From Acidimicrobiaceae bacterium (GTDB lineage: Bacteria; Actinomycetota; Acidimicrobiia; Acidimicrobiales; Bog-793): a DNA stretch of 46,598 nucleotides. Both the position numbers and the translations under genes were made by a program. The stretch lies in the NCBI GenBank assembly GCA_003136185.1, contig PLDN01000129.1, positions 1-46,598 on the forward strand. The letters are read 5' to 3'. The notes beneath the pieces were generated by a model. That model was not told the DNA's origin, made no database searches, and worked only from the letters and a program-made list of their open reading frames with translations. Below, piece after piece: positions 6,262-27,904 of this stretch. Position 1 is the stretch's first letter, and each line of letters begins with the position of its first letter.

Positions 6262-6345
6262 GGGGCGCCGGGACGCTGGCGAGGCGCCGGAGCGCCGGGG
6301 CGCCGGGACGCTGTTGATGCGCCGGAGCGCCGGGACGCTGGGGCT
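6262..6345. repeat. GC-rich intergenic repeats: GCGCCGGGACGCTG three times, with interspersed GCGCCGGAGCGCCGG
   Basis: Copies at 6265-6278, 6300-6313 and 6327-6340 read directly. Confidence 0.7.
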
Positions 6346-7034
6346 CAGCCTTGCGACAGCCGCGAGCGCTCAGCCTCGACCCATGCCTCGGCGGCCGTGG
6401 CTGCCTCCGGCATCCGGCCCTCCGACACGAGAGGCCAAAGAAGTCCGTCGACCAGTGCGTCCCAGTCCGCGTCCTCGGACGAGAGGCCGGCTGTCCGCAG
6501 GCTGGAGCGGCAACGTCCGACCAACGTGGCGAGCTCACCGACTTCCGGAGGCAGGACGCCGGCGATCTGGCGCTTGATCCAGCCTGCGAGGTACGGGCTG
6601 AGGCCGCCGGTCGACACGGCGACCGAGACAGGTCCTACGCGGGTGACAGCCGGGACGAGGTACTCGCAAGCCTCCGGGTCATCAGCCGCGTTCACCAACA
6701 CACCACGTTCCCGAGCGTCCACGTAGACCTGCCGGTCGACGGCCGGCACCCCTGTGGCAGCGACGACGAGACGGCAGCCGTCGAGGTCAGCCGCCTCGTA
6801 GCAACGCCGCTCGATCTTCACGCCGAGCAGTTCGAGGCCAGGGGAGATCTCCGGCGCGACCACCGTGACGAGGGCCCCGCAGGCAGCGAGCGACTCAGCC
6901 TTGTGCGTGCCGACGGGTCCACCGCCGACAACGAGGCAGCGTTGGCCGTCGAGCCGCAGCGCGAGATGGAACAAGGGGGGCTCGGCGTCGGAGAGGGGTT
7001 CACTGCCGGAGATGGGTTGAAGCTTGTCACTCAT
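6345..7034 (-). CDS. precorrin-2 dehydrogenase / sirohydrochlorin ferrochelatase-type (SirC/CysG N-terminal domain)
   Basis: 'RCLVVGGGPVGTHKAESLAACGALVTVVAPE', 'VNAADDPEACEYLVPAVTRVGPVSVAVSTGGLSPYLAGWIKRQI'; no methyltransferase domain. Confidence 0.9.
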   Translation of the reverse strand: MSDKLQPISGSEPLSDAEPPLFHLALRLDGQRCLVVGGGPVGTHKAESLAACGALVTVVAPEISPGLELLGVKIERRCYEAADLDGCRLVVAATGVPAVDRQVYVDARERGVLVNAADDPEACEYLVPAVTRVGPVSVAVSTGGLSPYLAGWIKRQIAGVLPPEVGELATLVGRCRSSLRTAGLSSEDADWDALVDGLLWPLVSEGRMPEAATAAEAWVEAERSRLSQG

Positions 7035-7176: not shown

Positions 7177-7881
7177 TTGGCCAGGAATGAGGGCACTGCA
7201 GTGATCGGCAAAGCGCATCCGGGCACGTCCGAGCTGGACGAGATCTCGGCCAAGCTCGAGGCTCTTTCTCCGCGCGAGGCGGCCGAGTCGGCGATCAAGT
7301 GGACGCTCGAAGAGTACGGGGACGACGTCATCGTGGCGAGCTCGTTCCAGGACGTCGTCCTGGTCGATCTCGTGCAGAAGGCCAAACCCGGGCTCGAGAT
7401 CGTCTTCCTCGACACCGAGTTCCATTTCCCTGAGACGCTTGCCTTCGTGGAGCGGCTCCGCAAGATCTGGGACCTGAACCTGACGGTCACCCATCCGGAC
7501 GTGGCGATGGACGAGTTCGTCTGTGGCACTCCGCGATGTTGCGAAGTCCGCAAAGTGGAGCCCCTCGCGAAGGCGATCGCCGGCCGCCAGGCCTGGATCA
7601 CCGGAGTGAAGCGGGTCGACACGCCCGAGCGGACCGGTGCACCGATCGTCACCTGGGACGCCAACCGGGAGATGGTCAAGGTGAACCCGCTCGTGACATG
7701 GACCGACGCCGACATCGACGAGTACCTCGCCGAGACGGGCCTCCCCCTCCATCCGCTCACCTACGTCGGCTACGTGTCGATCGGCTGCGCGCCGACGACT
7801 CAGCCGGTAGCCGAGGGCCAGAACCCTCGGGAGGGCCGCTGGCCCGGCATGGACAAGACGGAGTGCGGGCTTCACATCTGA
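7177..7881 (+). CDS. cysH: phosphoadenylyl/adenylyl-sulfate reductase with one canonical Fe-S cysteine replaced
   Basis: TTG start after GAGGGGGAGG; 'CCEVRKVEPL', 'VKVNPL..WTDADI', 'SIGCAPTTQPVAEGQNPREGRWPGMDKTECGLHI'. Confidence 0.92.
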   Translation: MARNEGTAVIGKAHPGTSELDEISAKLEALSPREAAESAIKWTLEEYGDDVIVASSFQDVVLVDLVQKAKPGLEIVFLDTEFHFPETLAFVERLRKIWDLNLTVTHPDVAMDEFVCGTPRCCEVRKVEPLAKAIAGRQAWITGVKRVDTPERTGAPIVTWDANREMVKVNPLVTWTDADIDEYLAETGLPLHPLTYVGYVSIGCAPTTQPVAEGQNPREGRWPGMDKTECGLHI

Positions 7882-7893
7882 GCCGGCACGACC

Positions 7894-7947
7894 GCCAACC
7901 GCACAACCCGCGCCAACCGCACAACCCGCGCCAACCGCACAACCCGC
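7894..7947. repeat. three perfect tandem copies of an 18-bp unit GCCAACCGCACAACCCGC
   Basis: Read directly: 7894-7911, 7912-7929, 7930-7947. Confidence 0.95.
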
Positions 7948-8058
7948 CCCACTCGCTTCTCCAGCTCGCCAACGAAGCTCGTAGCCGGAGTCTCCAGACG
8001 ACAAACCCAGACCGCACCTTGATCGGACTGCCGAGCGCAGTGAGGAGAGACCCACCGG

Positions 8059-9774
8059 ATGGAATTCCTGCAGCCCTTCCGCAAGGGGGCGCAGCTCAAC
8101 CAAATCGAGCGGTGGAAGCTCGATCGGCACCCGTTCGAGGTGGCCGACGCCGTCCGGACGCGCTACTCCGTCGAGGGCCCAGCTGCCATAGCGGAGGTCC
8201 CGGGCGAGGTCGAGCGCCTGAAGTGGGTCGGCATTTACCCACAGCGACAGGGCGGCGACGCGTTCATGCTGCGGGTCAAGGTGCCGGCTGGCCGGATGAC
8301 CGCCCACCAGGTCACGACGCTCGGCGAGATCATCGAGCGGTACGCCGACGGGCCCGAGGACCATGCGATCTGGGGCAACCGCTACGGCGACATCACCACC
8401 CGCCAGGACGTCCAGCTCCACTGGGTCCACATCGCGGACGTACCAGCTATATGGGATCTGCTCGAGGCCGCCGGCTTGACGAGCGTGCAGGCGTGCGGCG
8501 ATTCCGCTCGTAACGTCCTCTCGTGCCCAGTCTCGGGCGTCGACCGCGACGAGGTCTTCGATGCCTCGGAAATCGCCCGAGAGGTCTCCGACTTCTTCAC
8601 CGGCAACCGGGAATTCGCCAACCTGCCGCGCAAGTTCAAGCTCTCGATCACCGGCTGCCGGGACGACTGCGCACAGGCCGAGATCAACGACGTCGGCATG
8701 TGGCCTGCTCGTCTCGACGACGGCACTCTCGGCCTCAACCTCCTTGTCGGCGGCGGCCTGTCCGACGGCCCGCGGATGGCAAGCGACCTCGACGTCTTCC
8801 TGCTGCCTAACCAGGCGCTCGAGGTCTCCCGTGCGATCGCGCAGGTCTTCGGCGAGCTCGGCAACCGAGAGAACCGCGGGACCGCACGCATGCGCTACCT
8901 CGTCCAAGAGCTCGGGCCCGAGGGCTTTAGGGAGGAGCTCGCCGAGCGGACGGCCTTCGAGCTGCGCCCGGCGGGCGAGAGCCTCACCCGGCGTTACCGC
9001 GGCGACCACGTCGGCGTGCATGTCGAGCACCGTCCCGGCCATTCATACGTCGGGTGCTCGGTGACCGTCGGCCGCATGCCCGGGACCGACTTCATCGAGC
9101 TCGGACGATTGGCCGAGACCTACGGCGACGGCGAGGTCCGTCTCGCTACCGACCAGAATTTCGTCATCACCGGCGTGCCCGAAGATCGCGTCGACGACCT
9201 GCTGGCCGAGGATCTTTTGCAACGCCGGTCACCGTTCCCTGCTCCCTTCGAGCGAGGAGTGGTCGCGTGCACCGGGAGTGAGTTCTGCCGCTTCGCGATC
9301 GTCGAGACAAAGGTTCGCGCGGTCGAGTGGGCGCGGGAGATGGACAGGCGGTATGCCGATCGTTTCGGCGGGGGTGCGGGCGTGACCACCCGGCCGCTTG
9401 GCGAGGTCGTCCGCATGCACTTCTCGGGGTGTCCAGCATCGTGCGCCCAGCCGCAGATCGCCGACATCGGCTTTCGCGGCGAGACGGCGCACGTCGGCGA
9501 CGAGATCGTCGAGGCCGTCGACATCGGCGTCGGCGGCAGCCTCGGCACAGATGCCGGCTTCGGCGACTGGGTTGAGGGCGCCATGCCGGTTGACGACGTG
9601 GCCGACGCGCTCGGCAGGGTCGTCGAGCGGTACCTCGGTGAGAGGGCCGCGGGCGAACGTTTCTATGAGTGGGCGAGGCGGACGCCTGCCGATCAGGTCC
9701 ACGTCACTCTCAGCCCGGGACACCATCACGCAGGTAACGGAGCGAGTGCTTTGCGGAAGGAGCAAGACCGATGA
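8059..9774 (+). CDS. nitrite/sulfite reductase family protein (siroheme, 4Fe-4S); sulfite reductase by context
   Basis: 'ACTGSEFCRFAIVETK' and 'HFSGCPASCAQPQIADIGFRG' siroheme/4Fe-4S motifs; neighbours cysH and siroheme gene. Confidence 0.92.
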   Translation: MEFLQPFRKGAQLNQIERWKLDRHPFEVADAVRTRYSVEGPAAIAEVPGEVERLKWVGIYPQRQGGDAFMLRVKVPAGRMTAHQVTTLGEIIERYADGPEDHAIWGNRYGDITTRQDVQLHWVHIADVPAIWDLLEAAGLTSVQACGDSARNVLSCPVSGVDRDEVFDASEIAREVSDFFTGNREFANLPRKFKLSITGCRDDCAQAEINDVGMWPARLDDGTLGLNLLVGGGLSDGPRMASDLDVFLLPNQALEVSRAIAQVFGELGNRENRGTARMRYLVQELGPEGFREELAERTAFELRPAGESLTRRYRGDHVGVHVEHRPGHSYVGCSVTVGRMPGTDFIELGRLAETYGDGEVRLATDQNFVITGVPEDRVDDLLAEDLLQRRSPFPAPFERGVVACTGSEFCRFAIVETKVRAVEWAREMDRRYADRFGGGAGVTTRPLGEVVRMHFSGCPASCAQPQIADIGFRGETAHVGDEIVEAVDIGVGGSLGTDAGFGDWVEGAMPVDDVADALGRVVERYLGERAAGERFYEWARRTPADQVHVTLSPGHHHAGNGASALRKEQDR

Positions 9775-11204
9775 CGCTGTCACCCCCACGCCAGCGCGCG
9801 GAGATGAGCGGCATCTCCGAGGCGCCCGGCAAGGTCTGGTTCTGGGAGCTCGCCGCGGCGGTGATCGACGCGGACCGATGTGTGCAGTGCGGCGCTTGCG
9901 TGGCGGCGTGCCCGACCGACTCGATCGGCATCGGGTCCGACAACCTGCCCAAGCTCGTGAAGATGTGCACGGGCTGCTCGTTGTGCTGGGACTTCTGCCC
10001 CCGGGGCGGGATGCGGTACGAGGCGACTTGGTGGCCCGCTGAGGAATCGGCGGTCACGGCCGAGGCATCGGCGACCTGGGAGACGGTCGCCTCCTCGTCG
10101 GCCGTGCCCGCCTTCGCCGGGTCGGCGACGCCTGCGGATGTGGCTGGCTCCTCCTCGGCCGTGCCCGCCTCCGGGCGGCCGGCCTCCGTGCAAGTGACGC
10201 TTTCTCAAAGGCGCGGGGCTGGGGTTGCTGCGGGCGACAGGGGTGCCGTATCTGCAGTGGATGACTGGAGGATTACGGGTGCTGATCCTGCTCCTGGGCT
10301 TGGGCTCGTGCGCGAGGCGATCGCCGCTCGTGTGCTCCCCACCAGTAAGCTGGGAACCGATTGCGCCCAGGACGGGGGCGTTGTGACCGCGATCCTCCTA
10401 GCTTCCCTCGCAGCCGGGGAGATCGACGGCGCCGTCGTGGCGAGGGAGGACCCTGACCATCCGTGGAAAGGTGTTCCTCACCTCGCCACGACTGCTGTCG
10501 AAATTCGCGAGGCCGCTGGGAGCTTCTACAACCAGACGATGGCGCTCGGAAGCATCGATCTGGCGGCCGCCGGCCTTTCGCCGGACGCGCGTATCGCTCT
10601 CGTCGGCACACCCTGCGAGATCCAAGGCCTCAAAGCGCTCCAGTCCCGCCAGTGGCGCCGTGGCTCCAGAGCCGTCGACAACGTGGTGCTCACGATCGCT
10701 CTGCTCTGCACGAAGAGCTTCGACTACTCGAAGCTCATGTTGCGCGAGCTGCGCGACGAGCGGCACGTCGATCTGGCAGAGGTCGGCAAAGTCGATGTCA
10801 TCCACGGCCGGATGATCGTCGAGGACCAAGCCGGGCAGCGGATCGTGGACGAGCCCGTGAAGGACTTCCATGGGGCCGCTCTGAAGGGCTGCGACGAGTG
10901 CGCAGACTTTCTCGGGCGTGCAGCGGACATCTCCGTCGGCAGCGTCGGATCGGGCGCGGGGTACTCGAGCGTGCTCGTCCGCACTCAAGTGGGTCTGCAA
11001 GCGATCGACCTCGTTCGGCCCGAGCTCGAGATCGTGGACATCGAGGCTCCCGAAGCGCTCGATCGCCTCGACCGTCTCGACAAGAAGATCGCCAGCACGA
11101 CACTCCACCGGCCGTTCCAGCCAGAAGGCCCGCTCTTCGTCGACTTCGCGGAGCACCTCGCGTTTTACGGCGGCACGGACCGGGCGCCCGTCTGGCAGGA
11201 CTGA
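9771..11204 (+). CDS. ferredoxin-domain + coenzyme F420 hydrogenase/dehydrogenase beta-subunit (FrhB/FpoF/FqoF) family protein
   Basis: Two 4Fe-4S motifs 'CVQCGACVAACP' and 'CTGCSLCWDFCP'; 'QDGGVVTAILLASLAAGEIDGAVVA', 'VGTPCEIQGLKAL', 'CDECADFLGRAADISVGSVGS'; ATGA overlap with the sulfite reductase stop. Confidence 0.88.
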   Translation: MTLSPPRQRAEMSGISEAPGKVWFWELAAAVIDADRCVQCGACVAACPTDSIGIGSDNLPKLVKMCTGCSLCWDFCPRGGMRYEATWWPAEESAVTAEASATWETVASSSAVPAFAGSATPADVAGSSSAVPASGRPASVQVTLSQRRGAGVAAGDRGAVSAVDDWRITGADPAPGLGLVREAIAARVLPTSKLGTDCAQDGGVVTAILLASLAAGEIDGAVVAREDPDHPWKGVPHLATTAVEIREAAGSFYNQTMALGSIDLAAAGLSPDARIALVGTPCEIQGLKALQSRQWRRGSRAVDNVVLTIALLCTKSFDYSKLMLRELRDERHVDLAEVGKVDVIHGRMIVEDQAGQRIVDEPVKDFHGAALKGCDECADFLGRAADISVGSVGSGAGYSSVLVRTQVGLQAIDLVRPELEIVDIEAPEALDRLDRLDKKIASTTLHRPFQPEGPLFVDFAEHLAFYGGTDRAPVWQD

Positions 11205-11539
11205 TGAGCCCGGAGCCGGCGGCGGCCGACATAGACGGGCTCGCTTCACTCGTCCCGCTAGACGAGCCGGAGCGACTGCTCGCGTCGCTCCGCAGGCGTG
11301 CGGGCTCGCAACCCGATCGGATTCGTGACATAGCGCCTCGCGAGCTTGCGGCGTACGCATGGAAGCAACAGCAGTGGCGTGAGCCTCTCGAGGCCGCCGG
11401 GCTCGGCCAGCTGCACCTCCGGCACGCCTTCGCCACCGCCAAATGGGAGATCTGGCTCTGGATCCGCGGCAACCGGGTCTGGGACCAGCTGAGCGACCAC
11501 CTCGTGGGTCGGGTGATCCGCCGGGCGGGCTCGGCCTAG
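11204..11539 (+). CDS. small protein of unknown function, fourth gene of the sulfur operon
   Basis: 111 aa (MSPEPAAADIDGLASLV...), ATG at 11204 overlaps TGA of the FrhB-like gene (TGATG). Confidence 0.75.
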   Translation: MSPEPAAADIDGLASLVPLDEPERLLASLRRRAGSQPDRIRDIAPRELAAYAWKQQQWREPLEAAGLGQLHLRHAFATAKWEIWLWIRGNRVWDQLSDHLVGRVIRRAGSA

Positions 11540-12768
11540 GATCGGAGCGAGACCCGCCGGCCAGCCAGCCACAGAGCCAGCGGGGACAGGCCATAGGACC
11601 AGGCGAACGCCCCCTCGTGGTCCGCATCCCAGGCGACGAGGTCCGCTCGCAACCCGGGCGCGATCCGCCCACGGTCTGCCAGGCGCAACGACCGAGCGCC
11701 ACCCGCCGTCGCCGCACGGAGCGCCTCGGCAACCGACAACCCGAGCTCGGCGACCGCCAAGGCCACGACGAAGCTCATCGAGGTCGTGCCGCACGTGCCC
11801 GGATTGTGATCGCTCCCGAGCGCGATCGTCACCCCCGCCTCCATCATCCGGCGTGCCGGCGGCTTGTGACCCATGGCGAGGGCGGTGATGGGAGCGAGCG
11901 TTGCGACCACGCCGCCCTCGGCGAGCGCCCGGATACCCGCCTCGTCCACCCGCAACAGATGGTCGGCCGAAGCGCAGCCGATCTCCCCAGCCAGCTCGGC
12001 GCCTCCTGTGCACGCGAGCTCGTCGGCGTGGATCCGCGGGATCAGCCCGGCGGCCTTGGCCGCCTCGAGCATTAACCGCGACTGTGCAACGGTGAAGTAC
12101 CCCTCGTCGCAGAACACGTCGGCATGCCGCGCGCCGGCCGCCTTCGCCGCCTTGCACCAGCGGGCGACCTCGTGTGAGTACCCGTCGGCGTCGCCCTCCC
12201 ACTCGGGTCCGACGTCGTGGCCCGCGAGCCACGTCACTTCTACCCCGGCACCCTCCCGACCCGGTCCCGCCCACTCGCTGAGCAACCGGACGTCCGCTAA
12301 CTCACCGGGCTCGTTGAGGTGGTAGCCCGTCTTCGCCTCCACGGTCGTGGTCCCACCCGCCAGCCAAGCCCGCAGCCGGCGGTCGAGCCCTTCGGCGAGC
12401 ACGTCGGTCGGGGCCGCGCGTGTCGCGGTGACCGTCGACGTGATGCCCCCGCCGGCCGCGGCGATCTCGGCGTAAGAGGCGCCCGCTGATCGGAGCGCGA
12501 TCTCGGCGAAACGGTTCCCCGCGTAGACCGGATGCGTGTGCGCGTCGACGAGACCCGGTGTCACGAGAGCGCCACCCAGGTCGACCTCGTCGTCGGGAGT
12601 CAGCAGGTTATCGATCCCGGACTCGGCACCGACCCAGGCGATCGTCCCGCCGGCCGGAGCCCCGTCCTCGATCGTCCCGGAATCGATGGTCAGAGCGGCG
12701 TCGTCCAAAGCCTCGCCGTCCGCCGTGAACAGGCGGCCGATTCCTCTGACGAGAGTGATGCGGCTCAC
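11536..12768 (-). CDS. hutI: imidazolonepropionase
   Basis: 'GLVDAHTHPVYAGNRFAEIALRSAGASYAEIAAAGGGI', 'LGSDHNPGTCGTTSMSFVVALA'; GTG start. Confidence 0.93.
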   Translation of the reverse strand: MSRITLVRGIGRLFTADGEALDDAALTIDSGTIEDGAPAGGTIAWVGAESGIDNLLTPDDEVDLGGALVTPGLVDAHTHPVYAGNRFAEIALRSAGASYAEIAAAGGGITSTVTATRAAPTDVLAEGLDRRLRAWLAGGTTTVEAKTGYHLNEPGELADVRLLSEWAGPGREGAGVEVTWLAGHDVGPEWEGDADGYSHEVARWCKAAKAAGARHADVFCDEGYFTVAQSRLMLEAAKAAGLIPRIHADELACTGGAELAGEIGCASADHLLRVDEAGIRALAEGGVVATLAPITALAMGHKPPARRMMEAGVTIALGSDHNPGTCGTTSMSFVVALAVAELGLSVAEALRAATAGGARSLRLADRGRIAPGLRADLVAWDADHEGAFAWSYGLSPLALWLAGRRVSLRS

Positions 12769-12797
12769 TTCACCGGACTCCTCACTTCACCGGACTC
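12764..12797. repeat. perfect 17-bp tandem duplication CTCACTTCACCGGACTC at a stop/start junction
   Basis: 12764-12780 identical to 12781-12797. Confidence 0.95.
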
Positions 12798-14654
12798 TAC
12801 GATCCTCGCAGCGTTCCAGATCTCCCCGTTGCCGATGCGCCGGCCTGACCCGAAGAGCTGGTTGTAGACGCGCGTAAGTTGCTTCGAGCCTGGATACCCA
12901 TCGATCACCACTGCCTCGGTCACGTGGTATTTCGCGAAGGCGCCACCTATCTGACGTCTTTGCGCCGCCGACAGCACGACTGTCGGGGAGGTCTCTGCGG
13001 CCTTGGCGGTGATGTAGACGAGAACCGTCGGTAGCGGGCCGACGACTCCCGTCTTCGAGCCCGCCTGCGGATGCCAGGCGTACCCGTCGTAGTCGGCGTA
13101 CGGGAAACCGGCGATCGCCTGCCAGGCCATCGGAGTCCCGGCGAACGGCCCGCTGCCCGGCAGGATGAGCGCGATAGACGGCCGCCCGTCGCTCAGCGCA
13201 GGGATGGACCGGAGGACGGCGGGCACGCTCACGTCCACGTACCCCGCAAAGGGCACGCGTCCCCCGATGAACATCGGCACCGCCATGAGGACGCCGGCGG
13301 CGCCCGCGATGAGCCCCTCGACCCGCCCGCTCGCCTGGCCGTGCGCGGCTCGCCACGCCGTTAGCACGCCTTCGAGCGTGATCGAGGCGAGCAGTGCGAG
13401 AAGGAGGTTGGTGAGGATCGAGATGCGGAGCCAGCCGACGTTTCGAAGGAGAGGGAAGGCGGAGACCAGGTACCACGCCGGGGCGTGCCATCCGAAAGCG
13501 TGGCTCGTTCCTGTCGGGCGGGTCGCGGCGCCCCACGAGCACACGATGCACCACAAGGCAGCGCCCCAGAGCAAAAGGATCGCCCGGTGGCGCCTGGCGA
13601 AGGCGAGGGCCCCGAGGGCGAGGAGCACGATTACCGGCCCGACGAACGCCAGATCGAAACGATGCAACAGCGGCGTCCCAGGCGGCGCGACCAGGAACCC
13701 GTGCCCTGTCGTCCCGGACGGCCACACGAGTGAGGAGAGGGTGGCACCGGGCGCGACGGCCGCGTTGACGTAGGAGACGTGGTCCGGGCCGGTGACGTAG
13801 AAAGCGATGGGGTAGGCGAGCAGCGCGCCGGCGGTGAGGATGGCCGTTGCCGACGCCGCGAGTGCGAACCTCGCATGCGACGCGATCTGGCGCCAGTTGG
13901 CCGCCGCCGCCACTGCGACGGCGGGCACGCCGACGACGACGCAGTCGAGGAGGATCTCGGGGCTCGAGAAGAACTGCGCCACCGCCAGGAGGCCGAGCAC
14001 GAGGCCGAGTCGCAGCGGGCTCCCGGTCTGGCGAAAGCAGATCCGGTCGATGAGGTAGAGCGCTAGCGGTGGGAAGAACATCCAGGTGAGGTTGAAGTGA
14101 CCGATCCGGTCTGCCTGGAGGACAGCGGGGGAGAAGCCGTAGACGAGCCCACCGACGAACGCCACCGCTCGGCGCATTTCGTAGCGGCGCAGGACGAAGT
14201 AGAGCGAGCCGGCCGAGATGACGGGAGCGGCGATGCAGGCGACGTTGAAGGAGGTGAGCGGCGACGACAGTTCCGTGATGGGGGCGAGGATGAGGGCTTC
14301 GAGGAAGAAGTTCGTGTTCGTGAGCAGGTTGAAGCCGTGTGGGGCGAGCATGTAAGTGCTGACGAACGGGTTCGTGTGGTGGCCGATGGCGAATGGGAGC
14401 CAGCCCATGAACCACACGCCTTGCCCGACGTCGCCGAGGTTGAGCCGGTACATGTGGGTCGTGACGCCGGCTTCGAGGAGGTGCTGCCAGCAGAAGAGAG
14501 AAGCGAGCGTGTAGAGGGCGACGACTATTAGGCCTGCGGTCAGGGTGCTCGAGTGTTTGCTCTCGACCTCGGTGCCGTCGGTCACCTCAGCCCCGCACCG
14601 ACCTTCGCGCCTACCGATCCGCGATTCCGGGGCGCACGGGGATTCCGGGGCCAA
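12765..14654 (-). CDS. large polytopic membrane protein, GT-C/glycosyltransferase-like (start uncertain, GTG at 14585 possible)
   Basis: Multiple hydrophobic segments; clear homology by eye to 36017..37807 (Y/F..FSP.VL, W...PFA/PHALG motifs, SVPAV.RS). Confidence 0.75.
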   Translation of the reverse strand: MAPESPCAPESRIGRREGRCGAEVTDGTEVESKHSSTLTAGLIVVALYTLASLFCWQHLLEAGVTTHMYRLNLGDVGQGVWFMGWLPFAIGHHTNPFVSTYMLAPHGFNLLTNTNFFLEALILAPITELSSPLTSFNVACIAAPVISAGSLYFVLRRYEMRRAVAFVGGLVYGFSPAVLQADRIGHFNLTWMFFPPLALYLIDRICFRQTGSPLRLGLVLGLLAVAQFFSSPEILLDCVVVGVPAVAVAAAANWRQIASHARFALAASATAILTAGALLAYPIAFYVTGPDHVSYVNAAVAPGATLSSLVWPSGTTGHGFLVAPPGTPLLHRFDLAFVGPVIVLLALGALAFARRHRAILLLWGAALWCIVCSWGAATRPTGTSHAFGWHAPAWYLVSAFPLLRNVGWLRISILTNLLLALLASITLEGVLTAWRAAHGQASGRVEGLIAGAAGVLMAVPMFIGGRVPFAGYVDVSVPAVLRSIPALSDGRPSIALILPGSGPFAGTPMAWQAIAGFPYADYDGYAWHPQAGSKTGVVGPLPTVLVYITAKAAETSPTVVLSAAQRRQIGGAFAKYHVTEAVVIDGYPGSKQLTRVYNQLFGSGRRIGNGEIWNAARIVESGEVRSPVK

Positions 14655-14701
14655 GGAATTGGCGAAAGGACTACGAGACGGTCGTTTCGGTAATTCTTTG
14701 G
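14651..14701. repeat. inverted repeat/hairpin between hutF and the membrane-protein gene
   Basis: CCAAGGAATT (14651-14660) pairs 9/10 with AATTCTTTGG (14692-14701); inner CGAAA/TTTCG also pairs. Confidence 0.6.
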
Positions 14702-14729
14702 ACGGCGAGATCGGGAGTGAGCCACCACT

Positions 14730-16091
14730 TCACGGCCGATCGAGCAGTCGGGTGATCGCCTGGGAGAGGCGCTCTGCAACCGCGCGGCGAGGCCCGAGCG
14801 TGACGTGCTCGCCCCCTTCGACGACCCGGCGCCCCGCCACCGTGACTTCGTCGACGTCCGCCGGCGAGGCGCCGAACAGCACACGAGCGAGGAGAGCCTC
14901 GTCGGGCGGCGCGCCACTCCCGCTTCCAGCGCCCCCCGCCGCTCCCGCTCCCGCTGCTCCCGCCCCCGTCCCGGCCCCGGCTAACGCAGGCGACTCGTCC
15001 ACCCGCACAGTCACCCAGTCATCGAGTGGCTCCTCACCCCAGCCGAGCGAGTGGGCGCCGCCGGAGCTCCCGGCCTCGATGAGCGAGGCGATGCTCATGA
15101 TCCCGCGGCGTTCCTGGGTAAGGCGCTGGTGGGTCTCTAACGACCGGGTCTCTTCGAAGGGGTCGATCACGGCGTGCGAGTCACTGCCGACGCATAGCAC
15201 CGCACCGGATTCGGCCAGATCCGAGAACGGTCCGCCGCCGTCGCCGAGGTCCCGCTCGGTCGTGGGGCAGGCGCAGATGCCGCACCGGGCGAGCCCATAC
15301 CGGGTGACGTCCCGTGCCGTCAGATGGGTGGCGTGCACGGCGGTCGTCCGGTCGGAGAGTGCGCCGACAGACGCCAGCAGATCAGTCGGTGTCATCTGCG
15401 TCTCGGCCAGGCACTCCTCGTTCTCCTTGCGCTGCTCGGAGACGTGCACGTGAAGCGGTGCGCCTTCTTCGGCCGCCCAGGCCACGACCGAGCCCATCGC
15501 CGAGCGGGGGACGGCCCGGACGCTGTGGATAGCGGCGGCGAGCCGGGCCGGGACCGCCGCGGGTGTCCTCCCGAACCGCCCCGACTCCGACGCGGCTGTC
15601 ACCCTACGGCTCCAGGTATCCCCGTCACCATCGGAGAAACGCAGCTGCACCCCCTCCACCGCCGCCCCGCCCACGCCAGCCTGCAGGTAGCAAGTGTCGA
15701 GGAGCGTCAACCTGATCCCGGCGGCCTCCGCCGCGTCGACGATGGCCCAGCTCATCTCGTTCGGGTCGGCGTAAGGCACGCCGCCCGGACCGTGATGGAG
15801 GTAGTGGAACTCGCCGACGGCCGTCCAGCCCGCTAGGACCATCTCGGCGTAGACGCAGGTCGCGAGATCGCGATAGGAGTCAGGGTCGAGGCGCTCGGCG
15901 ACGGCGTACATCATCTGCCGCCACGTCCAGAAGTTTCCCGACCCGGTCTCACTCGCTCCCCGCAAGACGCGGTGGAACGCATGCGAGTGTGCGTTCACGA
16001 AGCCGGGAAGGCGGACGGTGCCCGCCGCCTCGCCCGCCAGCCCGGCCGCCGGCTTGCCCGCCGGCTTGCCCGCCGGCCCGCCGAGACTCAC
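14730..16091 (-). CDS. hutF: formimidoylglutamate deiminase
   Basis: 'LPGFVNAHSHAFHRVLRG', 'MVLAGWTAVGEFHYLHHGPGG', 'LHVHVSEQRKENEECL', 'VGSDSHAVIDPFEETRSLE'; N-terminus unusually short and low complexity. Confidence 0.88.
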   Translation of the reverse strand: MSLGGPAGKPAGKPAAGLAGEAAGTVRLPGFVNAHSHAFHRVLRGASETGSGNFWTWRQMMYAVAERLDPDSYRDLATCVYAEMVLAGWTAVGEFHYLHHGPGGVPYADPNEMSWAIVDAAEAAGIRLTLLDTCYLQAGVGGAAVEGVQLRFSDGDGDTWSRRVTAASESGRFGRTPAAVPARLAAAIHSVRAVPRSAMGSVVAWAAEEGAPLHVHVSEQRKENEECLAETQMTPTDLLASVGALSDRTTAVHATHLTARDVTRYGLARCGICACPTTERDLGDGGGPFSDLAESGAVLCVGSDSHAVIDPFEETRSLETHQRLTQERRGIMSIASLIEAGSSGGAHSLGWGEEPLDDWVTVRVDESPALAGAGTGAGAAGAGAAGGAGSGSGAPPDEALLARVLFGASPADVDEVTVAGRRVVEGGEHVTLGPRRAVAERLSQAITRLLDRP

Positions 16092-16095
16092 CGGC

Positions 16096-17793
16096 TCACC
16101 AGCCCTCCGGCCGTGCGAGACCCTCGGAGGGCAGCCAAACCCCTCGCTCGACGGCCGCCTCTCGGGCTGTCGGATAACCGGCGTCTGCGTGGCGCATCAC
16201 ACCGGTGCCCGGGTCGTTCGTCAGCACGCGCCGGAGCCGCTCGGCCGCGAGGGGTGTGCCGTCGGCCACTACGACGACGCCGGAGTGGATGGAGCGTCCG
16301 ATCCCGACGCCTCCACCGTGATGGACCGACACCCACGATGCCCCGGACGACGTGTTGAGCAGCGCGTTCAGGATCGGCCAGTCGGCGATGGCGTCCGACC
16401 CGTCCGCCATGGCCTCGGTCTCGCGGTAGGGCGAGGCGACCGAACCCGAGTCGAGGTGGTCGCGCCCGATGACGATCGGCGCCGAGACCGTGCCGGCCGC
16501 GACGAGGTCGTTGAAAGCGAGACCTGCGCGGTGCCTCTCGCCGTAACCGAGCCAGCAGATGCGTGCCGGCAGCCCCTGATAGGTCACCTTGTCCTCCGCC
16601 ATCCGTATCCACCGAAGCAGGTCCTCGGCCTCTGGGAAGGCGGAGATCACCGCCCGGTCGGTTGCGCCGATGTCGGACGGGTCTCCCGAGAGCGCCGCCC
16701 AGCGGAAAGGGCCCTTGCCCTCGCAGAAGAGCGGCCTGATGTAGGCCGGGACAAAACCCGGATATGCGAACGCCCGCTCGTAACCCTCCGCCTGCGCCTC
16801 GGCGCGGATGCCGTTGCCATAGTCGAAGACCTCGGCGCCCTTGTCCAAGAAGGCGACCATCCCGGCCACGTGCGCGGTCATCGAGGTCCGCGCACGCCGC
16901 AAGTACTCGTCGAGGTCACGCTCACGAAGCTCGGCGGCCTCCTCGAGGGACAGCCCGGCGGGGATGTAGGTCGTCGGATCGTGAGCCGAGGTCTGGTCGG
17001 TCACGATGTCGATCGGAACGTCTGACGAAGCAAGAGCCGGGACCAGCTCGGCCGCGTTGCCGATCAACGCGATCGACAGCGGTTGCCGATCAGCGGCCGC
17101 AGCCAATGCGAGCGCGACCGCCTCCGCCAGCGAGTCGGAGACGACATCGACGTAGCGAGTCTCTAGCCGGCGCTCGGCTCTAGAGCGGTCTACCTCGATG
17201 CAGATCGCCACGCCGCCGTTCATGGTCACGGCGAGTGGCTGCGCCCCTCCCATTCCTCCGAGCCCTGCGGTGAGGACGATGCGGCCAGCGAGCGTCCCGC
17301 CGTAGCGGGCGACGCCGATGGCGGCGAAAGTCTCGTAAGTCCCCTGCAGGATTCCCTGAGTGCCGATGTAGATCCAAGAGCCGGCAGTCATCTGGCCGTA
17401 CATGGTGAGGCCCATGCCCTCCAGGCGGCGGAACTCGGCGGGCGTGGCCCAGTCCGGGACGAGCAGCGAGTTCGCGATGAGCACGCGTGGCGCCCATTCG
17501 TGGGTCTGGAAGACACCGACCGGCTTGCCGGACTGGACGAGCAAGGTCTCGTCGTCACGAAGGTCGCGCAAGGTCTCGACGATCTTGTCGAAGGCCTCCC
17601 AGCTGCGGGCGGCCCGCCCGGACCCGCCGTAGACGACGAGGTCGTCTGGCCGCTCGGCCACTTCCGGGTCGAGGTTGTTCATGAGCATCCGGAGCGCCGC
17701 TTCCTGCGACCAGCCCCGGCAGCTCAGCTCCGAGCCTCGGGGCGCCCGCACCACTCGGGCACCGTGATCGCTCGGCCGGGGACCGGTCGTCAT
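16096..17793 (-). CDS. hutU: urocanate hydratase
   Basis: '[31 protein letters not shown]', '[25 protein letters not shown]', '[18 protein letters not shown]'. Confidence 0.97.
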
Positions 17794-19394
17794 TCGAGTG
17801 CTCCTATCTCTTGTTCGACTGCCGCCAGCAACTCCCCCGAACGGACGAGCTCGATGGCGGCGTCTACGTCGGGCTTCAGCTCACGATCCTCGTCGAGGTG
17901 GGCCACGCGCTGCCGCAGTGCGCTGAGCGCTGCCTGCGTTCCCGGCGCGGACCGTAGCGGGGCCCGCAGCTCGCAGGCCTGGCCGGCGGCGAGTACCTCG
18001 AAGGCGATGACCACTTCGGCATTCGTCACGCACTCGCGCGCGTGCCGTGCGGCGATCATGCCCATGCTGACGTGGTCCTCCTGGCCGGCCGAGGACGTGA
18101 TCGAGTCCACGGCAGCCGGGTGGGCCAACGACTTCGACTCCGACACGAGCGACGCGGCGGTGTATTGGCAGACCATGAAGCCCGAGTTGACTCCGGCCTC
18201 TCCCACGAGAAACGGAGCCAACCCATTCGAAGTTTTCGGATCGAGCAGGCGGTACAGTCGCCGCTCCGAGATCGACGCCAGGCCTACGAGGGCGGCGGCT
18301 AGCGAGTCACATGCATGCGCGACCGGCTGACCGTGGAAGTTCCCACAGGAGAGGATCTCGTCGTCGTCGGGGAGGACGATTGGGTTGTCCGAGACGGACG
18401 CCAGCTCGATCTCGAGGGTCCGGATGGTCTGGGAGAGCACGTCCCGTAGAGCCCCGTGCACTTGCGGAGCGCATCGGATCGAGTACGCGTCCTGCACGAT
18501 GTGATGGCCTTCGCGGTGGGAGGCGAGGATTTCGCTGCCGGCGACGAGACGCACCAAGTTGCGGGCGGCAGCCTGTTGACCGGGGTGCGGCCGAAGACCG
18601 ACGACGCGCGGATCGAACGCCTGGTCCGTACCGAGAATTGCTTCGATCGTGAGAGCCGCCGCGATGTCCGCCGCCTTGGCCAACTTGCGAGCCCGATCGG
18701 CCGCGAGCGCGCCGACGGCGGTCATCCCCTGGGTCCCGTTTATAAGTGCGAGGCCTTCTTTCGCCTCGAGGACGAGCGGCTCGAGCCCACTCGCAGCGAG
18801 CGCCTCGCGGGCGGGCACAGGTGTCGCCGATCCAGGCACCCGGACCATGCCTTCGCCGATCGCAGCGAGCGCGAGGTGTGCGAGCGGCGCAAGGTCGCCC
18901 GATGCCCCGAGTGATCCTTGCTCGGGCACGACCGGAAGGATCTGATGTTCGAGCAGCTCGACGAAACGGTCCGCCACCTCCACCCTCACACCCGAGTACC
19001 CGAGAGCGAGGACATGCGCACGTAGCGCGAGCATGGCGCGGACCTCAGAGGGACTGAGCTCGTTGCCGACAGCGACCGCGTGAGAGCGGATGAGACCTCG
19101 CTGGAGCGCGGAAGAGTGGTCTGCCGACAGTCGCACGTCGGCCAAGCTGCCGAAACCCGTCGTGACGCCATAGACGACCTCGCCAGAGGCGAGCGCCCGC
19201 TCGACGACCGCACGGGAGGCTCGCACCCTCGGCGCGACGCCTTCGCCGAAGCGAGCCGGCGCACCGCCGGCAATAGCTACGACGTCGTCTATCGAGAGCG
19301 AACCACCGAGCTCCACTGAGCCGTCACCGGCGAGAGGAGACCGGCCATCGCCATTGATGGCAGCCTCGGGCACGGCGCCGATTCTGTCAGGCAC
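17790..19394 (-). CDS. hutH: histidine ammonia-lyase
   Basis: MIO motif '[17 protein letters not shown]'; '[12 protein letters not shown]'; '[15 protein letters not shown]'; GTG start. Confidence 0.96.
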
Positions 19395-24010: not shown

Positions 24011-27000
24011 TCAGGTCGGGGTCACGTTGGCCGTGGCAGGAAGACCCTTCCCGAGCGCCGACTTTGCCACCACGGTGACCACGTAGTCCTTGTGGGCCAC
24101 CAGCCCAGTGAGGGTGGCGGACAACTTGGTCGTAGTAGCCGACACCGTCTTCTCATTCTTCGATGTCGCCGTGACGACGTATCCCGTGATCTTGTCGCCG
24201 CCCGTGGTGACGGGCGCCTTCCAAGATGCAGAGGCTGAGTCTTTCCCGGCAGTGACCTTCAGGTCCTGCGGCGCACTCGGCGAGCTCTTCTTATAAGTGA
24301 AGGTGGCGGCGCTCGTAGTAGCGCTCGTCGGATTACCGGAAAGCGTGATGGTCGTGATCGTGATGTTCACCTTTTGCGCCTTCGTCGACGGCGGGGCAAC
24401 GACTTCGATCGGGCCGCTCGGCGAGAAGAATGGTGCGGACACGATCGTTGCCGATAGCGAGCCGAAGTGGACGCTCACGAGGTTGTCGTCAAGCTGGGCC
24501 TTGATGGTGACCAGCGTGCCGCCATGCTCGGGTCCACTGCTGGGGGAGCTCGAGTCCACGATGGGTCGACCAGGTTCGACATAGTCGTAGGCGTCATGCT
24601 TCGGATTGGGCGCGCTACATCCGGTCACGCTGCAGACCAAGACGTCAGTCGGGATGTCGAAGAACTGCGGTGGGGTCACCGTGATCGACGTGTCGCTGTT
24701 GATCGTGAAGTTCGACGTAGTCGAGTACACGAAGTCAGTGTCCCCTTGCCCGATGAAGACGATCTGGTCGGCGTCGTCGAAGCCATGGCCCGTAATCGTC
24801 AACGGAGCCGGATCGGGCTGTGACCCGATATGGGTCGAGAGGCCGCTCACCGTCGGCACGCCGGCAAAGCTGAACGACGGGGCCGTCGCGGTCCCGCCAC
24901 CGGTCACGACAGATAGCGTGCTCGGGTCCGGCTCGACGGTGATGGCCGAGATGTTGTCGTCGCCGAGTGCGGATTCCACGATCTGTGTGGGCGTGATGCT
25001 CAGGACGTTGAAGTCCTCCACGTAGTTCGTGAATCCGCCAGGCGGGACGCCGACGTTGACCCAGTACAGGTCGAGCAGGTTGAAGCCGGTCCCGGTGATC
25101 GTGATCGGTGTGCCTCCGGTCTCGCTCGCGTAGCCCGGCGACACGCTTGTTACGGTTGGAACCGGTGCGTAGTCGTACTCGGTCGGGGCCTGTATGACCT
25201 CACAGCCGCATCCAGCCGGCGGTACGAACGCTCCATCTGCTCCGAAGGTGATCGCTCCCTCGTACGCCGGGTAGATCGTGCTCGTCGCGCTGGCGCCGTT
25301 GCCGTTGCTCACGACGACCTGGACTTGGCAGACTCCCGGCGTGTCGTTCGCACAGGTCGCGGTGGCATCTGACGGGACAGTCACGGTCAGCTCGTCGTCG
25401 CTGAGGGTGGTCTCCGAGGTGCCGGCAACGTCACCGAACGTGACACCAGTGACGCCGCTGCCCTCATCGAATCCACTTCCGACGATGTGCACGATGTTGC
25501 CGCCGGCTGCTGGACCATCCACCGTAGAGACGTAGTCGACGATCGGCTTGGGCGAGACCAACGTCCCACCGGTGTAGTGGAACACGCTCGCTGAACCGGG
25601 AGAGCTCGACTCCTCCGGCCCCGGCGACGACGGCGTCGTGACGGTCACGACATCGCTGCCGCCTTCACCGGCGAACGAGCCCGCCGGGCTCGTGTATGCC
25701 GGCACGTCGACCGTCACGGCCGTCGAGGTCCAACCGGTAACGGTTGCAGCCACGTCGCCGAAGAAGACGGCGCCTTGGCTGCCACCGAAGTTCGAGCCGC
25801 TGATCACCGCAGTCCCGCCGCCGCCTATCGGGCCGGCGGACGGAGCGATCCCGGTGACCGCAGGCGTGGCGCCCGACGTCACGAGTCCGCACAGCTGGTT
25901 AACGAGTCCCTCGCTGTCCGAGTTCGTGATCCGGGGCGTGCCGAGTCCGGATGCGAGGTCGTAGCCGGTCCCAGCCGGGTACGTCGTTCCGTCGCCGACA
26001 CCGAGGTTGTCGTTGTTGCCGACGGTGATGTCGTTAAAGGCGCTCGAGTAGTGCGTTCCGTCACCCACCGCGTAGAGCAGAGGGCTCACGAAACCAAGAG
26101 TGTCCGCACCGCACTCGCTGGACGCGTTCATCTCTGCGGTCATAGCCGCCCACAACGGTGTGGACGACGACGTGCCGCCGATCTGCGTCCATCCATCCCC
26201 GCCCACACCTGCGAAGAAGATCGTGATACCGCTCTGCGGGTCGGCGAGAGCGGACACGTCAGGCATCTCTCGACATAGTGTCCCCGCAGGAAGCGTGGTC
26301 TCTTGGCCCGCCAGGTGGTAGTTGTCGGCAGTCCCCGTCGGGTCGTTGCTGCAGGCTTGGGTGGCAGAAGTCGATTGGTCCGTGATGGACCCGGCCTGCC
26401 ATGACGGCATGGCCCAGGTCTCGGAGATCCCGCCGCCGCCGCCACCGCCGTTGTTCCCGTTGTTCCAGACCGTCTCATCAGGCGGGTCGTTGGAGGTGAG
26501 GAACGTCGTGCCGCCAACTGAGACGACGTAGGGCTGGCTGGCGGGGTCCAAGACCGACAGGTCCGGGGACACCGCCGTCGCGTCGTGGGATGCGCAGCTG
26601 TCCGATCCGTCGTCGCCGGCTGCCGAGAAGACGGACTGACCCTGGGCCGCGGTCTGCTCGAAGATGTTGTTCTCTGCCTCTTGATCGCCTGGCGCACCCG
26701 TTTGGAGCCCCGCCTCGCACACCCCCCAGCTGGAGGAAATCTCACTAGCGTTGTCAGCGATTGCGATTTCGTTCCAGGTGTCGAGCGGACCGAACGCGTT
26801 GTCCATGTTCGGACCTGAGAAGACGTCGATGTTGGCACTCGGCGCGATGGCGGAGACGTCCTCGACGTCGAGGGCCGCTTCGCCCGATCCTTCGCCGGTG
26901 CCCGGACCGCCGTCGACCGGTGTGACTGTGACTGTTCCGGCGTGACCTGACGGGAAGTAGCAGCTGTCGAAAGATGCGATGTCGCTCGAGAAGAACGGCT

Positions 27001-27904
27001 CGAGCTCGTAAATGTCGACCGTTTGGCCACTTCCGAGGTCGTGGGCGCTGTAGAGCCCGTCGAGGCCGTAAGCGCTCGCCAACTGCTGGTCGGTGGTCGC
27101 GCCCGTCGTCTCTGGGCCTTGTGCGTCGGCGCACGCCACTGGGCCACCGTTTGACGTGTGCGGTGCGCGAGCACCGGGCACGGCGTGGCCGGTGCCCTTC
27201 ACGTGCTCGAGGGTGTTCGTCTCGTGCACGAGGTTGTCGAGACCGAGGACAGCTTGAACGTTGTGAGCGATGGAACTCGGCAGCCTGACGCTCGAAGTCG
27301 TGGCTTGACCGATTCCGCCCTTTGCGAGGCTCACCCGCTCGAGACCTGTGTGGAAGGCCGCCTCAACACGGCTGGCGGTGCCCCGGAAGCCGACGAGGAG
27401 CCCGTTCGACGACACGCCCGTGACCTTCAGGCCTTCGTTCCGCAGTTCATTGCGGACTGCGGCGATGGTGGCCTTCGTCGGGCCGAAACGTGCGGCGTAC
27501 TGCCCCTTAGCGAGGTAGTGGTGGTACAGCAGGGAGTGCGAGTTGGTGACATCACTGATGAACTGGGTGATGGCAGCCTGGCTCCGAGGCTTCAGAGCGA
27601 GACCTCCAGAGATCTCTTCGGTTGCCCGGACGGCACCGATGGCGTGTGCGCCGAGCGGCAGCAGGCGGGGCGCGGCTTGGATCGCGACGAGGTGGTCGAC
27701 CTGGGCAGGCCGGACCGACGCGGACGCGAGCGCGTTGCCACCGGCTGCAGCGGCAAGACCCGCGACGAGAGTCGAGGCCACTGCCGAGCCGGCTAAGCGA
27801 CGAGCCCTCCGTCCCCGAGCTGTTCCTGTCGATCTCGCTCGCAGGAAACCCGCGCTGGAAATCGCCTTTCCATGTCCCATTCGGACGTCGTTGTCCATCG
27901 GCAC
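24011..27904 (-). CDS. secreted S53-family serine-carboxyl protease (sedolisin/kumamolisin) with prodomain, IPT/TIG repeats and Fn3 domain
   Basis: Signal-like N-term, prodomain, 'GEGSGEAALDVEDVSAIAP' (Glu/Asp), 'GGTSSSTPLWAAMTAEMN' (Ser), repeated 'PxVxxVSPxxGxxxGGTxVxIxGxGF' IPT motifs, Fn3-like C-term. Confidence 0.9.
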   Translation of the reverse strand: MPMDNDVRMGHGKAISSAGFLRARSTGTARGRRARRLAGSAVASTLVAGLAAAAGGNALASASVRPAQVDHLVAIQAAPRLLPLGAHAIGAVRATEEISGGLALKPRSQAAITQFISDVTNSHSLLYHHYLAKGQYAARFGPTKATIAAVRNELRNEGLKVTGVSSNGLLVGFRGTASRVEAAFHTGLERVSLAKGGIGQATTSSVRLPSSIAHNVQAVLGLDNLVHETNTLEHVKGTGHAVPGARAPHTSNGGPVACADAQGPETTGATTDQQLASAYGLDGLYSAHDLGSGQTVDIYELEPFFSSDIASFDSCYFPSGHAGTVTVTPVDGGPGTGEGSGEAALDVEDVSAIAPSANIDVFSGPNMDNAFGPLDTWNEIAIADNASEISSSWGVCEAGLQTGAPGDQEAENNIFEQTAAQGQSVFSAAGDDGSDSCASHDATAVSPDLSVLDPASQPYVVSVGGTTFLTSNDPPDETVWNNGNNGGGGGGGISETWAMPSWQAGSITDQSTSATQACSNDPTGTADNYHLAGQETTLPAGTLCREMPDVSALADPQSGITIFFAGVGGDGWTQIGGTSSSTPLWAAMTAEMNASSECGADTLGFVSPLLYAVGDGTHYSSAFNDITVGNNDNLGVGDGTTYPAGTGYDLASGLGTPRITNSDSEGLVNQLCGLVTSGATPAVTGIAPSAGPIGGGGTAVISGSNFGGSQGAVFFGDVAATVTGWTSTAVTVDVPAYTSPAGSFAGEGGSDVVTVTTPSSPGPEESSSPGSASVFHYTGGTLVSPKPIVDYVSTVDGPAAGGNIVHIVGSGFDEGSGVTGVTFGDVAGTSETTLSDDELTVTVPSDATATCANDTPGVCQVQVVVSNGNGASATSTIYPAYEGAITFGADGAFVPPAGCGCEVIQAPTEYDYAPVPTVTSVSPGYASETGGTPITITGTGFNLLDLYWVNVGVPPGGFTNYVEDFNVLSITPTQIVESALGDDNISAITVEPDPSTLSVVTGGGTATAPSFSFAGVPTVSGLSTHIGSQPDPAPLTITGHGFDDADQIVFIGQGDTDFVYSTTSNFTINSDTSITVTPPQFFDIPTDVLVCSVTGCSAPNPKHDAYDYVEPGRPIVDSSSPSSGPEHGGTLVTIKAQLDDNLVSVHFGSLSATIVSAPFFSPSGPIEVVAPPSTKAQKVNITITTITLSGNPTSATTSAATFTYKKSSPSAPQDLKVTAGKDSASASWKAPVTTGGDKITGYVVTATSKNEKTVSATTTKLSATLTGLVAHKDYVVTVVAKSALGKGLPATANVTPT

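Follow-up and report, generated by a model that had tools for sequence, protein, structure and literature searches.

The 46,598 nt of DNA analyzed here, referred to as the window (forward strand of contig PLDN01000129.1, assembly GCA_003136185.1, Acidimicrobiaceae bacterium (Bog-793), an actinobacterium of soil type), carry a cysH operon in which the gene of a siroheme sulfite reductase overlaps the gene of a ferredoxin-FrhB protein, and the question raised by this arrangement is how the reductase is supplied with electrons. A preliminary description of the DNA had interpreted the two genes as the separated halves of Fsr, the F420-dependent sulfite reductase of methanogens, and had suggested that assimilatory sulfite reduction is fed by F420H2. 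The latter suggestion provides the best reading, because the reductase has a presumably co-translated FrhB-type partner and the genome holds the genes for F420 synthesis and Fno, but the split-Fsr framing had to be abandoned since the reductase is of the NirA/SirA type, unlike the Dsr-like sulfite half of Fsr. We consider it likely that the operon encodes a two-protein F420H2-dependent assimilatory sulfite reductase. Judged from the sequences, it is a putative bacterial member of a class, aFsr, that was predicted in haloarchaea on basis of gene arrangement (Susanti & Mukhopadhyay 2012, PMC3448663).

Organization of the operon

All four open reading frames (ORFs) were found where the preliminary description had placed them, on the plus strand. 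The first, cysH (7177..7881), encodes a (P)APS reductase (PAPS_reduct, 5e-37; NF002537, 226.6 bits and over cut-off) and starts with a TTG that is preceded by a purine-rich stretch. It is followed by the gene of aFsr-alpha (8059..9774; 571 aa), a siroheme-[4Fe-4S] sulfite reductase of the NirA/SirA type (NIR_SIR, 8.3e-57; NIR_SIR_ferr, 1e-35), the gene of aFsr-beta (9771..11204; 477 aa), the predicted electron-input subunit, and a small ORF (11204..11539) for a third protein of 111 aa that lacks Cys. The reductase stop overlaps the aFsr-beta start as ATGA (9771..9774), which would imply translational coupling of the two genes, and the ATG of the fourth ORF at 11204 has one base in common with the preceding TGA (TGATG). 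One genome per species was scanned, which yielded 242 relatives, and the best 80 loci were counted. The alpha-beta overlap and the operon cannot be ascribed to chance, as the start codon precedes the end of the reductase stop by exactly 4 nt in 64 of the 88 pairs examined (at least 62 of the 84 distinct pairs; the duplicate contigs L038/L118, L039/L066, L040/L089 and L041/L101 were removed) and homologs of the 111-aa ORF are present in 72 of the 80 loci.

The putative sulfite-reducing subunit

The sequence matches of aFsr-alpha, a two-repeat protein, belong to the NirA/SirA group, with Fsr appearing only at 1e-6. Its structure model (predicted local distance difference test, pLDDT, 83.5) can be superposed on the structures 3b0l (tobacco nitrite reductase) and 1zj8 (M. 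tuberculosis NirA/SirA) with template modeling (TM) scores of 0.81-0.84, as compared to about 0.36 for Fsr. In its fold and siroheme-[4Fe-4S] site aFsr-alpha resembles plant nitrite reductase and SirA/NirA of M. tuberculosis (1ZJ8). These enzymes have no FrhB partner, and the plant enzyme has Asn at the second Lys of the substrate pocket. Fsr (7NP8, 7NPA), on the other hand, is one polypeptide with a Dsr-like, single-repeat C-terminal half that contains an inserted ferredoxin domain, whereas the window encodes two proteins, with a NirA/SirA-type half and a long linker.

The Cys residues of the siroheme-cluster site (C404, C410, C458 and C462) and the substrate residues R115, R151, K192 and K194 are invariant in every aFsr-alpha row of the alignment, of which six are haloarchaeal and 80 actinobacterial (76 of these being distinct). 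Every aFsr-alpha checked keeps the second Lys of the PRKFK pocket, which is the sulfite form, whereas two haloarchaeal reductases encoded beside nasA have PRKFN, with an Asn at that position like the plant nitrite reductase. The enzyme of the window shows neither the Asn nor the nasA neighbor that mark the NasA-linked nitrite reductases; it has the Lys and a cysH neighbor. Given that the Lys is constant in aFsr and replaced by Asn in the nasA-linked enzymes, the annotation 'ferredoxin--nitrite reductase' is probably wrong for the aFsr-alpha clade. Gene presence within genomes was assessed by single-family searches, and these recovered aFsr-alpha as the sole siroheme reductase of the window's genome, together with CysD. 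Four additional Cys residues in the N-terminal half (C146, C156, C200 and C204) were considered as ligands of an aFsr-specific second cluster, but as most ordinary Acidimicrobiia reductases have them too, this idea was discarded.

The putative electron-input subunit

The fusion of two 4Fe-4S motifs to an FrhB domain, as noted in the preliminary description, was recovered with the Pfam hidden Markov models (FrhB_FdhB_C, 1e-31, and FrhB_FdhB_N, 6e-18, both over the Pfam cut-offs, and two Fer4 motifs). The ferredoxin domain (residues 30-79; 9858..10007) contains two full CX2CX2CX3CP motifs, the first of which was found in 93 of 93 aFsr-beta homologs and the second in 90. The second motif of Fsr lacks one Cys, and cluster 3 of that enzyme has a Glu ligand (PMC10229431), whereas the window protein has four Cys there. 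A low-complexity linker (residues 85-180; 10023..10310), which is variable in the alignment of relatives, leads to the FrhB domain (10362..11030) with a predicted FAD/F420 site and one [4Fe-4S] cluster (Pfam; Foldseek matches to F420 enzymes). The spacing between the second ferredoxin motif and the FrhB motif ranges from 37 to 128 aa among the 93 homologs and is 122 aa in the window; the length and variability of this spacer suggest that the ferredoxin domain is tethered and mobile. The FrhB domain itself retains its motif and cluster ligands: the non-canonical cluster sequence PC-Xn-C-Xn-CX2C is present, C282, C313, C374 and C377 are invariant (45 sequences) and the Cys spacing is 30/60 or 32/60 in 88 of the 93 homologs.

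The closest solved relatives of aFsr-beta are the ACDS zeta subunit (8RIU), Fsr, FwdI (8RJA) and FrhB, all of them F420 enzymes, the best values in the profile search against solved structures being 5e-50 (8riu_B), 1e-49 to 3e-46 (Fsr) and 8e-41 (FrhB). Fsr has the ferredoxin domain, the FrhB domain and the same cluster sequence. In Ca. Ethanoperedens a ferredoxin-FrhB module occurs as a stand-alone subunit (ACDS zeta in 8RIU, FwdI in 8RJA) that is docked on another redox enzyme, with measured coupling to F420 (PMC11493965); the partners are, however, CO dehydrogenase and formylmethanofuran dehydrogenase, and electrons flow towards F420. A second ferredoxin-FrhB paralog, widespread in the class, is encoded on contig C94 of the window's own genome (L042:8005-9132) and in L013-L035, and its closest solved relatives are F420 modules as well.

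Linkage, distribution and descent

The survey of synteny that the preliminary description had called for confirmed the pairing: the reductase gene lies directly upstream of the FrhB gene in 75 of the 80 contig loci, 3 more loci end at a contig edge, and cysH accompanies the pair in 60. The linkage is also strict at the level of genomes. Within a sample of 296 genomes of the class this FrhB clade occurs in seven, and this reductase clade in exactly the same seven and in none of the 289 others; where other class genomes gave a match, the reductase was a distant one of about 40% identity and the FrhB protein no more than a paralog of ~33% identity.

The alpha and beta gene trees, which are quick trees with long branches, agree in their groups: Rubrobacter (including R. 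taiwanensis, L124) forms a single group in either tree, and the haloarchaea lie outside the actinobacteria. In the beta tree a 100% branch separates the actinobacteria and haloarchaea jointly from the paralog, and in the alpha tree their aFsr sequences form one group with 90% support (Shimodaira-Hasegawa-like approximate likelihood ratio test, SH-aLRT). By these trees both subunits are orthologous to the haloarchaeal pair. The host organisms belong to the Acidimicrobiales and to Rubrobacter, and one of them, R. taiwanensis, is an isolate. Carriers with GenBank titles that refer to Saccharibacteria, Acidobacteriota and Chloroflexi were not counted as host evidence; L101, titled Candidatus Saccharibacteria, is the same contig as G099:C43 from a genome of the window's order, and its title looks wrong.

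The haloarchaeal aFsr has the same make-up, with adjacent genes for an aSiR-type alpha subunit and an Fsr-N/FrhB-type beta subunit with two N-terminal ferredoxin motifs. The pairs on haloarchaeal plasmids, whose genes are adjacent or overlapping, share 48-55% identity with the window pair in beta and 41-50% in alpha. The window pair differs in its position behind cysH and in the conserved third protein, a gene for which was not annotated directly after the haloarchaeal pairs examined. In Natronococcus and Halomontanus (L159:4526-8164 and L160:4323-8215) a rhodanese-like domain is fused to the reductase ahead of the FrhB gene, and the Natronococcus pair is followed by nos genes.

The aFsr tree of 2012 already included Rxyl_0964 of Rubrobacter xylanophilus and a Thermobaculum protein (PMC3448663). 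The 2021 review of F420 lists Fsr in methanogens only and mentions neither aFsr nor Rubrobacter (PMC8498797), and a paper of 2022 still lists aFsr as putative (PMC9295563); our literature search, which covered open-licence papers, yielded no record of an experimental test. The idea as such has thus been published, and what is added here is the actinobacterial breadth, the strict linkage, the cysH context and the conserved third protein.

Source of the electrons and alternative explanations

In the proposed route CysH would make sulfite, Fno could make F420H2 from NADPH, and aFsr-beta would pass the electrons of F420H2 to aFsr-alpha to yield sulfide for cysteine. F420H2 would then be the donor and sulfite the main substrate of an alpha-beta complex with a moving linker. 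The fact that the sole sulfite reductase gene overlaps that of an F420-oxidizing-type protein makes it probable that the sulfide for cysteine is obtained with F420 electrons. The genes for F420 biosynthesis, which the preliminary description had proposed to look for, are encoded in the window's genome (FbiC and CofD, as well as Fno, all over cut-off), and among carrier genomes FbiC was over cut-off in 23 of 28 and CofD in 25 of 27.

Several observations weigh against this reading. The carrier G314 has neither FbiC nor CofD over cut-off, although that genome may be incomplete, and unrelated sequence was found in L068 and L116 where the reductase is expected next to the FrhB gene. FbiC occurs in 88 of 100 sampled class genomes irrespective of aFsr, and the joint presence of aFsr and F420 synthesis was therefore not accepted as proof that F420 is used; it does not discriminate and shows only that the required cofactor can be made. 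The ferredoxin half of the aFsr-beta model is unreliable (pLDDT <50). Finally, the FrhB fold serves ferredoxin-dependent enzymes too: HCAR (5dqr) was recovered by Foldseek (7e-14), be it among the weakest of the FrhB-fold matches.

The last observation bears on a different source of electrons. HCAR takes its electrons from ferredoxin, and free ferredoxin is the donor of SirA/NirA and plant nitrite reductase. If aFsr-beta, like plant HCAR, received its electrons from reduced ferredoxin or a different donor, its FrhB domain would no longer use F420 and would act as a flavin-gated relay, and both the shared fold and the usual partnership of NirA/SirA proteins with ferredoxin fit such a role. In the profile search, however, FrhB, Fsr and the F420 modules were found at 1e-38 or better and HCAR was absent at 1e-10, so aFsr-beta does not join the HCAR-type class, and with a ferredoxin domain of its own the protein has no need of a second ferredoxin input; we regard this explanation as unlikely. 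The substrate could also differ from the one proposed. Databases name the haloarchaeal relatives ferredoxin--nitrite reductase, and Fsr and its relative of group II from anaerobic methanotrophic archaea (ANME) do reduce nitrite (PMC10229431, PMC9295563). An enzyme that is mainly an F420H2-dependent nitrite reductase is nevertheless very improbable considering the second Lys of the pocket, the cysH gene in the operon and the presence of CysD beside this sole siroheme reductase. There is hardly a case, in turn, for an FrhB protein that serves another partner (e.g. the free ferredoxin pool) and is merely co-transcribed with the reductase. The second, widespread FrhB paralog in the genome could be taken to favor it, but in Acidimicrobiales, Rubrobacter and haloarchaea alike the two genes form an exclusive, overlapping and co-inherited pair, and other Acidimicrobiia have a distant sulfite reductase without this FrhB protein.

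A bolder version of the F420H2-dependent reading would be a three-protein F420H2:sulfite oxidoreductase, with a ferredoxin domain that swings on a long linker and a new small subunit, that forms the main sulfur-assimilation route in a large actinobacterial clade and whose genes were transferred together between bacteria and haloarchaea; we put this forward tentatively, as it is somewhat doubtful in its entirety. F420 in bacteria has mostly been discussed for secondary and xenobiotic reactions. If F420H2 indeed drives the reductase, the cofactor would take part in core sulfur assimilation in many actinobacteria from soil and freshwater, and there would be a further way to power a siroheme sulfite reductase besides free ferredoxin and the NADPH flavoprotein. 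Rubrobacter taiwanensis is a culturable host in which the prediction of 2012 could be checked. The operon also points to an uncharacterized accessory protein, and 'ferredoxin--nitrite reductase' labels hide relatives.

CysH and the small third protein

Of the APS-reductase cluster motif, the CysH of the window retains CC and the first Cys but has Thr in place of the last Cys (GCAPTT). A comparison of cysH in the loci L036-L125 showed the Thr variant (GCAPTT or GCASTT) in most Acidimicrobiales loci, while in Rubrobacter (L084, L110 and L124) the Cys is retained (GCEPCT). In the Thr variants the cluster may have a ligand other than Cys or may have been lost.

Conserved residues in the alignment of the 111-aa protein are Trp, Arg and Gly (core WLW-G-R-W...GR..RR), and searches of Pfam and PDB returned no relative. 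It occurs in 3 of 247 class genomes, all three aFsr carriers, and this pattern suggests an operon-specific protein that may act as a dedicated accessory or subunit. Since no copy was found in certain carriers (the lineages of L040 and L041), it is not strictly required. An identity as ferredoxin or CysX was rejected as there is no conserved Cys, and a match to TraX (NCBIfam, 9e-6) was far under the cut-off and taken as chance.

Neighboring genes

Divergent from the operon lies a gene for a precorrin-2 dehydrogenase of the CysG N-terminal type (6345..7034, minus strand; TIGR01470, 2.6e-40), which belongs to siroheme synthesis and has a homolog close to the operon in 29 of the 80 loci. Beyond the operon the minus strand carries histidine-degradation-like genes (11536-19394; two amidohydrolases, a urocanase and an aromatic amino acid lyase) and an ORF of 1297 aa (24011-27904) with pro-kumamolisin activation, TIG and fibronectin III domains, which likely encodes a secreted protease.
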